A stretch of DNA of 64,000 nucleotides from assembly GCA_028285145.1 (NCBI GenBank), contig JANQQC010000047.1, positions 1 through 64,000 on the forward strand, given 5' to 3'. Below the pieces are notes generated by a model. That model saw nothing but the letters and a program-made list of their open reading frames with translations, was not told the origin of the DNA and searched no databases. Position numbers and translations under genes: made by a program. Positions 11,416 to 30,236 of the stretch are shown piece by piece. The stretch's first letter is position 1; the number at the start of each line of letters is the position of its first letter. The DNA is from Hyphomonadaceae bacterium (GTDB taxonomy: Bacteria; Pseudomonadota; Alphaproteobacteria; Caulobacterales; Hyphomonadaceae).

Positions 11416-11492
11416 TGGCGGTCCGAGGAGGATTCGAACCCCCGACCCCCTGATTCGTAGTCAGGTACTCTATCCAGCTGAGCTATCGGACC
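11416..11492 (-). tRNA. tRNA-Arg (anticodon ACG)
   Basis: Reading leftward, the acceptor arms GGTCCGA and TCGGACC pair perfectly. The anticodon arm is CCTGA-CTACGAA-TCAGG with ACG in the loop, and the T arm contains GGTTCGAATCC. Discriminator G and an encoded CCA end the gene, 77 bases in total. ACG is read with inosine at the wobble position and decodes CGT, CGC and CGA. No integrase or repeated 3' end is seen nearby. Confidence 0.97.
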
Positions 11493-23061: not shown

Positions 23062-23976
23062 ATGAAGTATCTCGGCATTGCGATGGCCACGCTTGCGCTG
23101 ACGGCCTGTGGCGGCGGAGGCGACAGTTATGAACGCGACGAGGGCATCCTTGGCTCAGCCAATATGTATTCAAAGGAAGCTGCGGCACCGGCATCCCCGC
23201 CACCGCCGACCCTGAATGCGAGCCCCCAGCTTGAGCCATCTCCGGACGGCGCGCCCGCGCCTGAGGCCGGCGAGCAATACATCGCCTATCGCCATGCGCT
23301 GAGCCTTCGCCTGCCGGCTCGGGAAGTCGCGGCGATGATGGAACGCCAGGCGGAAGCCTGCCGTACCGCCGGTGTCGAGACCTGCATCATCACCAATTCA
23401 ACCGTGAACAACTCCTCGGAAGACTGGGTTTACGCCTCGCTGAACCTGCGGGCGCAGCCAGACTGGATCGAAACATTTCTTGCCGGCGTCGATGCCGAGG
23501 CTGAGGGCGCAGGCGGGGAGGTATCCTCCCGTTCGACGAGTTCGGAGGATCTGACTCGCCAGATCATCGACACAGATGCGCGCCTGCGCGCGAAGATCGA
23601 GTTGCGCCAGCGGCTGGAAGACCTACTCGGGACGGAGGAAGCCGAGCTGTCTGACCTGCTCAACATTGAACGCGAACTGTCGCGGGTGAACAGCGAGATT
23701 GAAGCTTCCACCTCTTACCTGAAAGCGCTGCGCCTTCGCGTGTCGATGTCGGAGCTCAATATCAGCTACGAAACCAAGCCGGCCGTGGTGTCGAGCTCTA
23801 CTTTCGATCCGCTGTCCCGCGCCTTTGGCGGCTTCTTCCGGACGCTGTTTGAGGCGGTCGGCGCGGTGGTGACCGCCTTTGCGATCGGCCTGCCCTGGCT
23901 GCTGCTCATCGGGGCCCTGCTCTGGGTGTGGCTGCGCCTCATCTGGCCGCGCATCCGGCGCAAGAAAAAGGCCTAG
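23062..23976 (+). CDS. DUF4349 lipoprotein
   Basis: A 304-residue protein with a lipobox (ALTACGGG, Cys15), a Pro/Ala-rich linker and the DUF4349 domain. The domain has a beta part (DWVYASLNLRAQPDWIETF), then a long coiled coil (about 165-225) and a C-terminal membrane helix (about 265-292) with a basic end. The topology suggests a periplasmic coiled coil tethered at both ends. Function is unknown for the family. The ATG at 23062 is preferred to a TTG two codons earlier. Its end overlaps the GNAT gene by 4 bases. Confidence 0.85.
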   Translation: MKYLGIAMATLALTACGGGGDSYERDEGILGSANMYSKEAAAPASPPPPTLNASPQLEPSPDGAPAPEAGEQYIAYRHALSLRLPAREVAAMMERQAEACRTAGVETCIITNSTVNNSSEDWVYASLNLRAQPDWIETFLAGVDAEAEGAGGEVSSRSTSSEDLTRQIIDTDARLRAKIELRQRLEDLLGTEEAELSDLLNIERELSRVNSEIEASTSYLKALRLRVSMSELNISYETKPAVVSSSTFDPLSRAFGGFFRTLFEAVGAVVTAFAIGLPWLLLIGALLWVWLRLIWPRIRRKKKA

Positions 23977-24452
23977 AGCGAGCGTTCCAGAAAGGCGACT
24001 TCATAGACGCCCGGATCATGAGCGGCATGGCCAACCACGCGAAAGCCGAGCCGCTCATGGAACCGCATCGAGCCTGGATTGGGCGGGAGCGTGTTGATCT
24101 CGCAGACCATGACCGAGCGCCGGCCTGCAAACCGCTCGAAGGCTTTTTCGTATAACTTCGGGCCAAGCCCCTGCCCGCGCGTTTCAGGCGAGAACGCGAT
24201 GCGATCGACATAGACATAGTCGCCACCCCGCGCCTCGAACCAGGCATAGTTAGGGCTCCGATAATCTGCGCCGGGCTCAACCAGTGAGAGGAAGCCTATG
24301 GGGGAGTCATCGGCATCGACCGCGACGAGGCAGATGCCCGCTGCGAAACACGCGGCGAGGCTCCGCTCGGTCTCCTTGGACACGTTGGGAGTCGAGGCCT
24401 CATTGATGGCGTGGAGCCGAGCAAGGTCAGAGGGTGTGTAGGTGCGGATCAT
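23973..24452 (-). CDS. GNAT-family N-acetyltransferase
   Basis: A 159-residue acetyltransferase. The acetyl-CoA pyrophosphate loop is RGQGLGPKLYEKA, and the C-terminal motif B region NPGSMRFHERLGF is complete. The acceptor is unknown. It is convergent with the DUF4349 gene with a 4-base overlap of the stops. Confidence 0.88.
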   Translation of the reverse strand: MIRTYTPSDLARLHAINEASTPNVSKETERSLAACFAAGICLVAVDADDSPIGFLSLVEPGADYRSPNYAWFEARGGDYVYVDRIAFSPETRGQGLGPKLYEKAFERFAGRRSVMVCEINTLPPNPGSMRFHERLGFRVVGHAAHDPGVYEVAFLERSL

Positions 24453-26183: not shown

Positions 26184-26939
26184 ATGGATTATCTCTCGCT
26201 CATGAGCGACCTGCATGGGGATGGCACGCGTCAGGGGCCCGGCGGCGATGATGAAACACTGCTGGCGATCACCCTGTCAGGTCTTGATCGGTCAGAGCCG
26301 CTGAAGATCGCCGATATTGGATGCGGGACGGGAGCCTCGACCTTCGTGCTCGCCAACGAACTGAATGCTGACATCACCGCCATCGACCTTGCCGCGCCCA
26401 TGCTGGAGACGTTCCGGCAGCGCGCGGAAAGCCTTGGCATCATGGAGCGTATCAATCTGCTACATGCCTCCATGGACGACTTGCCGTTCGAGGATGGTGC
26501 GCTGGACGTGATCTGGTCTGAAGGGGCGATCTACAATATCGGCTTCGAAAACGGCATTCAGGCCTGGCGGCGGTTTCTGAAGCCGGGCGGGATTCTCGCC
26601 GTCTCTGAACTGATCTGGCTGACCACGGACCGGCCAGACGAACTCACCGCGCATTGGGACCGAGAGTATCCGGAAGTCGCCATCGCTTCGACGAAGCTGA
26701 AACAGCTCGAAACGCATGGCTACCTGCCCGTCGGCTACTTCCCGCTCGGCAAGCATTGCTGGCTCGACAACTATTATCATCCGTTGGAGAGCCGCTTCGA
26801 TGCCTTCCTAGAGCGGCAGAAGCATTCGGCGGACGCCAAGGCGATTGTCGAGGCGGAGGCGGAAGAGATCGCGCTTTACAGACGCTTCTCGGACTATGTG
26901 AGCTATGGCTTCTACATCGCGCGCAAATTCGGCGACTGA
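26184..26939 (+). CDS. Class I SAM-dependent methyltransferase
   Basis: A 251-residue methyltransferase with a standard SAM loop (IADIGCGTGASTFVLAN, near residue 44), ITAIDLAAPML, ASMDDLPFEDGALDVIW and FLKPGGILAVSE. It resembles small-molecule methyltransferases of the UbiE/type 11 group. GAAGGAGG lies about 8 bases before the ATG. It is divergent from the multi-span membrane gene and shares its dyad-containing spacer. Confidence 0.87.
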   Translation: MDYLSLMSDLHGDGTRQGPGGDDETLLAITLSGLDRSEPLKIADIGCGTGASTFVLANELNADITAIDLAAPMLETFRQRAESLGIMERINLLHASMDDLPFEDGALDVIWSEGAIYNIGFENGIQAWRRFLKPGGILAVSELIWLTTDRPDELTAHWDREYPEVAIASTKLKQLETHGYLPVGYFPLGKHCWLDNYYHPLESRFDAFLERQKHSADAKAIVEAEAEEIALYRRFSDYVSYGFYIARKFGD

Positions 26940-26985: not shown

Positions 26986-27321
26986 TCAGGCAGAACGAAG
27001 ATGTTCGAGCTCAGCCAGCATAGCCGCTTCGAGCAGGGGCGCAGTTTCATGAACCCATGCAGGCTCGCGATGGCGGATCATCAGCCACAGGAGAGACTTC
27101 ACATCCCAGAAGGTTGCATCGATCAAGCCGGGCTCGGACTTGTCTCGTTTGAAGTGCCAATGAATCGAGTTCGGGAACTTAGTTCGGGAGTAGCCGCCGA
27201 TATGCGAGATATACAGGCCTGCCGCCTCCGCAGCGCGCTCGACCACGCGCATGATCTGCTCTTTTGAGATGCCGTCGGGCACAGGGATATGGACGTCATC
27301 TGATTTCTTTTCCTTGGGCAT
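26986..27321 (-). CDS. Conserved hypothetical protein
   Basis: A 111-residue protein starting MPKEKKSDD, with a central ISHIGGYSRTKFPNSIHWHF and a C-terminal helical part (LLEAAMLAELEHL). No signal or membrane segment. I do not recognise the family. The ATG at 27321 is preferred; an in-frame TTG lies 60 bases upstream. Confidence 0.65.
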   Translation of the reverse strand: MPKEKKSDDVHIPVPDGISKEQIMRVVERAAEAAGLYISHIGGYSRTKFPNSIHWHFKRDKSEPGLIDATFWDVKSLLWLMIRHREPAWVHETAPLLEAAMLAELEHLRSA

Positions 27322-27400
27322 TTTCCTAGCCTCGCTCTGATTGCGTCCAATTTGGGTAGAGATACTTTTATGGCCCTGCAACAGCCCGCCCTTCCCCCCA

Positions 27401-28142: not shown

Positions 28143-28994
28143 CTATTTGGGTGAAGCTTTGAAGCTCATCGCCGTCAACTCAACACGCTCTTCTAGAGGA
28201 GGCCTCAGCTCGAAGGCTTTGGGGTTCTTCGCAAACTCATAGATTCGGAACAGCACCCAATTCTGTCGATTGGAATCGGCAACGTCCAGCTCGTTTTTTG
28301 AGATATGAAATGGTGTTCGATGCCAGCCGTTGGTGGTTTTCACCTCTAGCAACCGAGGCGCTCCATCAGCTTCAAAACTGGAGATGTCAAAACCAGCACC
28401 GTCTCCCTCAAACTTCGACGTCCAAACAACTCTATCAGCAAGATCAATCCGACCGTCTTTGCGAAGTCGGAACTTCTCATAGTCGAAAGCATATTCTTCG
28501 CCGTCGTCACCGAGTTTCCGGTTCCGCTGATCGCGAGCAGCAACATCATACTTCTTCGCAATGATCGCCATGCGTTCTGCATCAACCGGGGGAGGCTCAT
28601 TCGATTGCGTAGGTGGCGGCCCGACCCAAAGGGTCGACGGATCGCGGACGCCCGGCTTTAGCTTCGACCGCCCAAGTCGATCGCCCGACACAGCTTCCAC
28701 CCATGTTTCGCCGTCCGGCAATTCCCGCAGAACCGCATCAACCAATGATGCCTGAAACTGAGAGGCCGGTTTGTATCCATCGATCCATGGCTGACCCAGC
28801 CCTAGCATAACGGCGCTAATGTTTTGATGCTTGAACTCGATCGAACCACGAGATCTCGACCTTAAGACCTTCTGCAACTCTCTATTGTGTTCGGCCTTGT
28901 TATAGCCCTTCCCCACCAGTTCGGAGCGGAGCATGTCGAAGTAATCACGAACGATGAGATTGTTTTCTTCGTCGGTCCAATCTCCGCCGGACAT
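28143..28994 (-). CDS. DUF3883 PD-(D/E)XK nuclease-like protein
   Basis: A 283-residue protein. An N-terminal domain (about 1-90: DWTDEENNLIVRDYFDML, SIEFKHQNISAVMLGLG) occurs in front of several restriction-like nucleases. The C-terminal domain (about 165-270) is DUF3883: GAGFDISSFEADG then RLLEVKTTNGW gives the D-X(n)-ExK core of a PD-(D/E)XK nuclease, and NWVLFRIYEF follows. It starts 3 bases after the argG stop. Composition is more AT-rich than its neighbours, suggesting acquisition. A standalone restriction or antiviral role is inference. Confidence 0.78.
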   Translation of the reverse strand: MSGGDWTDEENNLIVRDYFDMLRSELVGKGYNKAEHNRELQKVLRSRSRGSIEFKHQNISAVMLGLGQPWIDGYKPASQFQASLVDAVLRELPDGETWVEAVSGDRLGRSKLKPGVRDPSTLWVGPPPTQSNEPPPVDAERMAIIAKKYDVAARDQRNRKLGDDGEEYAFDYEKFRLRKDGRIDLADRVVWTSKFEGDGAGFDISSFEADGAPRLLEVKTTNGWHRTPFHISKNELDVADSNRQNWVLFRIYEFAKNPKAFELRPPLEERVELTAMSFKASPK

Positions 28995-28997
28995 CCC

Positions 28998-30236
28998 CTA
29001 ATTCCGCCCTGCCCGCTTGTCCCGTCCGGCCAGCAAACGCAGACGTAGCGCATTCAGCTTGATGAAGCCTTCAGCGTCTTTCTGGTCGTAGGCGCCGTGA
29101 TCGTCTTCAAAGGTGACGATGTCTTCTGAGTAGAGCGAGTAAGGCGAGGTGCGCCCGACAAGGTGAGCGCCGCCCTTATAGAGTTTCAGGGTGACTTCGC
29201 CGGTGACGTAGAGCTGGGAATGGTCGATGGCGGCCTGCAGCATCTCGCGCTCCGGGCTCCACCAGAAGCCATTGTAGATGAGCTCGGCATAGCGCGGCAT
29301 CAGCTCGTCCTTGAGGTGGCCTGCGCCGCGGTCGAGCGTGATCTGCTCGATGCCGCGATGGGCAGTGAGCAGGATGGTGCCGCCGGGCGTCTCGTAGATG
29401 CCGCGCGACTTCATGCCAACAAAGCGGTTCTCCAACAGGTCCAGCCGGCCAATGCCGTGCTTGCGGCCATACTCGTTCAGCTCTGTCAGAAGCGCGGCCG
29501 GGGACAGCACCTTGCCATTGATTGAGACGGCATCGCCTTTCTCAAAGCCGATGGTGATGGTCTCCGGCGTGTCGGGCGCGTCTTCCAGATGGGCGGTGCG
29601 CTGATAGACGAAGTCAGGCGCTTCAACGCCCGGATCTTCCAGCGCTTTGCCTTCCGAACTTGTGTGGAGGAGGTTGGCGTCAACGGAGAACGGAGCCTCC
29701 CCACGCTTGTCGGTCGGCACCGGGATGCCGTGGGCTTCGGCGAAATTGATCAGGTCTGTGCGGGAGTTGAACTCCCAGTCGCGCCAGGGGGCGATGACCT
29801 TGATGTCCGGGTCGAGGCCGTAATAACCGAGCTCGAAGCGGACCTGATCATTCCCCTTCCCTGTCGCGCCATGACAGACCGCATCCGCGCCGACGGCCTG
29901 CGCGATTTCGATCTGCCGCTTGGCAATCAGCGGGCGGGCGATGGAGGTGCCGAGCAGGTAGACGCCCTCATAGACGGCATTGGCCCGGAACATGGGGAAG
30001 ACATATTCGGCCACGAATTCCTCGCGCAGATCCTCGATGAAGATATGCTCGGGCGGCACGCCCATTTGCAGCGCCTTCTGACGGGCGGGCTCCAGCTCCT
30101 CGCCCTGGCCAAGATCGGCGGTGAAGGTGACCACTTCGCAGCCGAACTCGACCTCAAGCCATTTCAGGATGATGGAGGTATCGAGGCCGCCGGAATAGGC
30201 GAGGACGACTTTCTTGGGGGCGGCTGACATGGACAT
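28998..30236 (-). CDS. argG: Argininosuccinate synthase
   Basis: A 412-residue enzyme joining citrulline and aspartate with ATP to argininosuccinate in arginine synthesis. The N-type PP-loop [14 protein letters not shown] is at about 13-26, with [15 protein letters not shown] and the aspartate/citrulline-binding regions intact and length normal. An alternative ATG lies two codons downstream. The nuclease-like gene follows 3 bases after the stop. Confidence 0.97.

Follow-up and report, generated by a model that had tools for sequence, protein, structure and literature searches.

Related nuclease families

The closest described relatives of the gene analyzed here belong to PDC-S36, a family catalogued in PADLOC as a candidate defence system. 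PDC families are described as unvalidated or pending in a section of PMC12988326, and a literature search by name recovered no published test of any PDC-S36 protein. PD-T4-1, which a table of PMC10952713 credits to Vassallo et al. (2022) as a PD(D/E)XK system, shares the C-terminal nuclease region. The corresponding domain, DUF3883, is termed 'a novel REase domain' in a passage of PMC3710099, and the DefensePredictor paper (PMC13092281) reports PD-(D/E)XK domains in 13 further validated systems. The domain is also common to DUF3883/NOV_C proteins that include SNF2-helicase fusions and TmtA, which are large proteins with a helicase or several domains (the profiles of TmtA span 1,302-1,655 positions).

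The window (the whole 64,000-nucleotide stretch analyzed) holds a gene that, judged by its profile match, is a new member of the already catalogued PDC-S36. The match to PDLC05008 is full-length (4.6e-114, positions 1-279 of the 280-position profile) and the protein differs from the family only in the place of its gene behind argG. It also differs from PD-T4-1: only profile positions 237-355 of 383 are matched, and the 236 unmatched N-terminal positions point to a different recognition part. Unlike the SNF2 fusions and TmtA, it is a protein of 283 aa that stands alone.

The gene and its surroundings

The features of the locus are as follows.

28143 to 28994, minus strand: PDC-S36 family gene, encoding a DUF3883/NOV_C nuclease-like protein of 283 aa (ORF reading, Pfam, PADLOC).
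28995 to 28997, minus strand: 3-nt gap between the argG stop and the ATG, the insertion point behind argG (sequence and comparison of argG loci).
28998 to 30236, minus strand: argG, 412 aa, the conserved upstream partner (ORF and search for argG in relatives).
23973 to 24452, minus strand: GNAT gene, far border of the variable interval behind argG (19 of 71 genomes have an orthologue on the downstream side of argG).

The gene begins with ATG three bases after the argG stop, as the earlier note had placed it, and is the only copy of the family in its genome. At 52.8%, where the mean is 60.8% (sd 2.5%), its GC content is the lowest of 65 window ORFs picked by a simple script, which confirms the AT-richness described in that note; its codon usage score is only the fourth lowest of 62. 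A small ORF of the same argG-GNAT interval (26986-27381) comes next to last among them in GC (54.8%).

No promoter-like site was found between 27300 and 30700, where shuffled sequences averaged 1.1. The 3-nt gap fits coupling to argG, although a distance of this kind proves nothing. Also, no att-like direct repeats surround the gene, only short G+C-rich matches. A tRNA was discarded as insertion target, the sole tRNA of the window lying at 11416-11492, as was a tail-duplication scar, with no convincing second argG 3' end within 8 kb downstream.

Domains and predicted active site

The protein is divided into the following parts.

28707 to 28994, minus strand: N-terminal domain, residues 1-96, four helices, holding I52-A61 (alignment and model; Myb/SANT-like by weak structural match).
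28206 to 28544, minus strand: C-terminal PD-(D/E)XK nuclease fold, residues 151-263 (Pfam, AlphaFold, structural alignment).
28338 to 28499, minus strand: predicted active site from invariant columns, E166 (28497-28499), D203 (28386-28388), E217 (28344-28346) and K219 (28338-28340).

Pfam NOV_C (PF13020), which we take to be the domain formerly called DUF3883, matches residues 165-261 (1.7e-19; 70.1 bits, the cut-off being 22.1). Two further PADLOC profiles match the C-terminal part only, PD-T4-1 (residues 148-264, 4.5e-14) and TmtA (2.5e-14). Across an alignment of 49 homologues with 55-63% identity to the window protein, no sequence departs from E166, D203, E217 or K219, and the ten consecutive columns I52-A61 are equally invariant. 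The DUF3883 domain with an intact D-ExK core that had been read from the sequence beforehand is thus recovered, as a NOV_C match with an invariant D203...E217-x-K219.

Searched as a single protein, the sequence has no solved relative at E 1, and the two matches of a profile search were both implausible and were rejected. The AlphaFold model of the whole protein is moderate (pLDDT 74, pTM 0.58) and shows a helical domain at the N-terminus and, in the C-terminal part, an alpha-beta core formed by helix 151-179, strands 204-207 and 213-220, helix 233-241, and strands 246-252 and 259-263. Both the alpha-beta core fold and the conserved D...(D/E)-x-K of PD-(D/E)XK nucleases are therefore present in the predicted protein. 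Structural alignment of residues 151-283 with VIA-align retrieved a SPARDA subunit (Z 8.6), I-Ssp6803I (Z 7.9) and Hjc (Z 7.8), with PD-(D/E)XK enzymes spanning Z 8.6-7.5, middling values in a range for which the tool cautions about chance arrangements. Foldseek gave a best E of 0.027 and nothing below 0.001; its top match, human Rep15, is unrelated and not a nuclease, and was set aside.

SPARDA kills the cell, and the structure of the matched subunit is titled an activated filament with bound dsDNA. Together with the stand-alone character of the gene, this would suit an abortive-infection effector, a nuclease held off until infection that then degrades the DNA or RNA of the cell. We regard such a role as unlikely: the similarity is that of the PD-(D/E)XK fold in general, and no partner, sensor or ligand-binding domain was seen in a protein of only 283 aa. 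Also, of 29 PADLOC families matched by the window ORFs, the 25 listed include no Argonaute, the partner in SPARDA.

Modelled alone, the N-terminal domain is confident (pLDDT 89, pTM 0.83). Its best matches are the Myb domains of the telomere-binding proteins Tbf1 and NgTRF, at weak scores (Z at most 5.5, Foldseek E at least 1.8), so that a Myb-like identity is suggestive only. The third helix is the recognition helix in Myb domains, and it is in the third helix of this domain that I52-A61 lies. Its near-total conservation suggests a fixed target of recognition.

Methylases of the window and the genome

PADLOC matched 29 families across 61 window ORFs, and the 25 listed include no DNA methylase; the methyltransferase encoded at 26184-26939 appears from its sequence to act on small molecules. 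The rest of the genome encodes one N6/N4 methyltransferase, apparently CcrM-like from its sequence, and one C5 methyltransferase. The absence of a methylase nearby, as earlier described, consequently stands for the window; it does not stand as a rule of the family, since methylase families occur among the neighbours of other PDC-S36 members and a putative C5 methylase gene adjoins one of them. In this relative (G039, L149:1731-5114) the gene lies between a tyrosine integrase gene and the putative C5 DNA methylase gene.

Type IV restriction enzymes likewise lack a cognate methylase, a trait that is unspecific and is shared by orphan nucleases of other types. Type IV restriction proper, in which only DNA with modified bases (e.g. 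hydroxymethylated or glucosylated cytosine) would be cut, accords with a lone nuclease in a window devoid of methylases and with a ten-residue invariant stretch in the putative recognition helix, which fits one fixed target over variable sequence. T4 DNA is modified, and the nearest tested relative, PD-T4-1, is by name a T4 defence. Against it stand the two DNA methylase genes of the host and the Dam and Dcm methylases that the E. coli hosts of relatives presumably carry as a rule, with which common marks could not act as trigger. Overall we find this explanation possible but rather doubtful.

A lone nuclease tolerates the DNA of its own host, and a rule of recognition is therefore needed. Given the CcrM-like and C5 methylases of this host and Dam and Dcm in enteric hosts, those marks are not expected to be the trigger. 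The simplest rule would be a fixed foreign mark or structure, followed by activated abortive cutting.

Distribution, mobility and selection

The family is patchy. A match was obtained in 14 of 150 genomes, its own included, so that fewer than one in ten relatives carry the gene, and the N-terminal domain is likewise patchy (37/299). The best 80 of 279 relatives in the genome collection are nearly all alphaproteobacteria by name. Copies from Palleronia/Tritonibacter and Roseibium share 99.3% amino acid identity at a dS of 0.04, and copies so nearly identical (about 99%) in these three genera indicate that the gene moves between genera. The gain of the gene postulated in the earlier note is supported, as a horizontal one. 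A phage origin was rejected, as only 6 of 50,697 phage records match and none across 80% of the protein; 45 IMG/VR loci encode relatives.

By tblastn, 29 of 80 named PDC-S36 loci and 0 of 20 argG control loci have a serine recombinase no more than 5 kb away, a count that favours the former group because the queries came from these same loci; the corresponding figures for a DUF2924 gene are 31/80 and 0/20. A serine recombinase or tyrosine integrase was also found in 4 of 12 relatives' loci. Among 439 neighbour proteins (ORFs of up to 1,600 aa and uncut by a contig end) Pfam recognised 7 tyrosine integrases, the parts of the scan contributing 5, 2 and none among the families listed. Neighbours also include type I restriction, DISARM-like, Mokosh-like, McrBC and other PDC families; the PADLOC tallies comprise many families with few members each, from which no defence enrichment is claimed, and recombinases are commoner than any single defence family. 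In two loci of one genus (L150 and L157, genomes G147 and G139) the gene adjoins an ORF that reads as uvrB, and it is broken in G139.

Proximity to recombinases and integrases in a part of these loci, together with the fold match to the homing enzyme I-Ssp6803I, would be compatible with a role in the biology of mobile elements (homing or element maintenance) rather than in defence. The copies, however, occupy many unrelated sites and interrupt no gene, some of them, including that of the window, have no recombinase nearby, and PADLOC lists PDC-S36 as a defence candidate; this role appears improbable.

Interrupted or split copies do occur in the family (L062, L204, G139, G123), as would be expected if the gene were a decaying passenger devoid of function behind argG. 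The window copy, in contrast, is intact with every catalytic residue present, and the median dN/dS of intact members is 0.08 (1,844 pairs from 119 intact sequences, pairs that share ancestry and are thus not independent). Although 0.08 is a family value, the window copy having no close relative for an estimate of its own, it suggests that intact PDC-S36 copies are under purifying selection, and mere decay seems very improbable.

The site behind argG

An argG match was obtained in 144 of 150 genomes, some of them distant. The PDC-S36 gene is not universal at this position: it lies behind argG in none of 70 other family genomes, and a comparison of coordinates places it away from argG in all 13 other carriers. 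What follows argG differs between genomes. In 26 of 71 family genomes (own included), an ORF of 80 aa or more begins on the same strand within 60 nt of the argG stop. These ORFs form 16 clusters, and some of them (e.g. G044, G065 and G067) are probably spurious, a noise that the control loci meet equally.

For each gene the best loci, 30 at most, were scored under one fixed protocol. An ORF beginning no more than 10 nt past the stop was present at 10 of 30 argG loci, with five unrelated families represented, and at 1/30 loci of typA, 2/27 of pnp, 0/30 of ftsZ and 1/22 of hemL. The last is a poor control, true orthologues being missing from some genomes, and only its 22 loci at least 55% identical were used (8 of 30 dropped). 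The difference between argG (10/30) and the controls (4/109) gives a Fisher p of 3e-5, to be read with the fact that the ten loci include one four-member and one three-member cluster, which brings the number of independent cases closer to five. The family has a variable slot immediately after the argG stop.

Two of ten slot proteins scanned in Pfam have an accepted domain, an HNH protein (Pfam 1.2e-8, PADLOC HNH 1.2e-15) and a DUF4145 protein (Pfam 1e-10); scanning of the other eight yielded none. One slot family of 170 aa with an RNxLxH motif reads as HEPN-like, with no profile match. Unrelated single genes starting a few nt behind argG were seen in L134, L230, L121, L141, L228 and others (unknown membrane proteins, HNH, HEPN-like, DUF4145).

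A GNAT orthologue closes the interval behind argG in 19 of the 71 genomes, many of which are covered for only 2.7 kb or less in this direction; the interval measures 4.5 kb here and 1.3 kb at its shortest. In G016 (L129) a 101-bp copy of the argG 3' end, 87% identical and including the stop codon, is found 400-500 nt behind the stop, following two small ORFs apparently shared with G008 and G023. This duplicate looks like the scar of an exchange in the argG tail.

More tentatively, and at slightly less than even odds, we propose that in this bacterial family single accessory genes of unrelated kinds land repeatedly within a few bases of the argG stop, to be read from a housekeeping transcript, and that the site is a promoter-capturing cargo slot that operates with neither integrase nor tRNA and is loaded by recombination in the argG tail. 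A narrow literature search found no report of argG as an integration hotspot, which does not prove absence.

Proposed function

The explanation we favour, with a probability of roughly 0.6, is that the window protein is a horizontally gained, single-gene defence nuclease whose N-terminal domain recognises a foreign feature and whose C-terminal domain cuts, encoded in the argG cargo slot. A restriction-like defence role is likely. Family membership, the predicted fold, the conserved active site, purifying selection across the family, mobility and the slot are observed; DNA cutting, its target, an antiphage effect and co-transcription with argG are what we infer. The N-terminal helical domain, probably a Myb-like DNA-binding domain, would recognise foreign nucleic acid by some fixed feature, and the PD-(D/E)XK domain would then cut it, with E166, D203, E217 and K219 presumably holding the metal. 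No methylase partner would be required if the recognised mark or structure is absent from host DNA. The gene would have landed in the slot directly behind the argG stop and is probably translated from the argG transcript. The interpretation of the earlier note, a recently gained type IV-like restriction or antiviral protein using that transcript, was right in direction and is supported in part, the protein being nuclease-like, horizontally gained, specific in its place (0/70) and a member of a listed defence candidate family.

Relatives on resistance plasmids

By tblastn, relatives occur in 1,205 of 72,556 plasmid records (1,117 at a query coverage of at least 80%); 882 of the 1,205 are conjugative. 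In three plasmid records inspected, the ORF follows aac(3)-IId and an ATPase in the tmrB position or a remnant of this block; in one of the three, ISCfr1 comes after it. The plasmid ORF at L205:5710-6846, next to aac(3)-IId/tmrB (annotated DUF3883, WP_000080860), matches PDC-S36 at 6.1e-107, with 42% identity to the window protein and the catalytic residues kept. It differs from the window protein by a 97-residue N-terminal extension and in that it travels with gentamicin resistance on conjugative plasmids, whereas the window gene lies behind argG. Searched alone, the aac(3)-IId-linked ORF was found in 599 of 5,426 complete E. coli genomes, of which 582 reach 80% coverage, and the resistance block (at least 80%) in 1,026 plasmids. 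A section of PMC7096625 names a module aacC2-tmrB-orf192-orf228-orf1182-ISCfr1, giving no function for orf1182 there; gene order and neighbours of 192 and 228 bp suggest that orf1182 corresponds to the plasmid PDC-S36 ORF, annotated here at 1,137 bp.

A Sphingobium conjugative plasmid (L208:7293-8822) carries a closer relative, with a HEPN gene 3 nt before the PDC-S36 gene, then genes for a WYL regulator and for RecB-like, exonuclease and ATPase proteins.

In WP_150345605, from a Pseudomonas luteola plasmid (L209:4001-5128), the N-terminal domain is shared (PDC-S36 positions 5-95, 3.2e-22), and an HNH nuclease replaces the PD-(D/E)XK domain; the fusion to HNH is seen at 3.2e-22 and 1.2e-16. 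I52-A61 is kept in part both in the plasmid relative and in the HNH fusion. The N-terminal domain is modular, as expected of a recognition module.

The argG slot as a hotspot for small cargo and the linkage to aac(3)-IId are the parts of this analysis worth following. If the plasmid relative blocks phages, gentamicin-resistance plasmids would carry a phage shield, which would bear on phage therapy and on the commonness of the resistance block.
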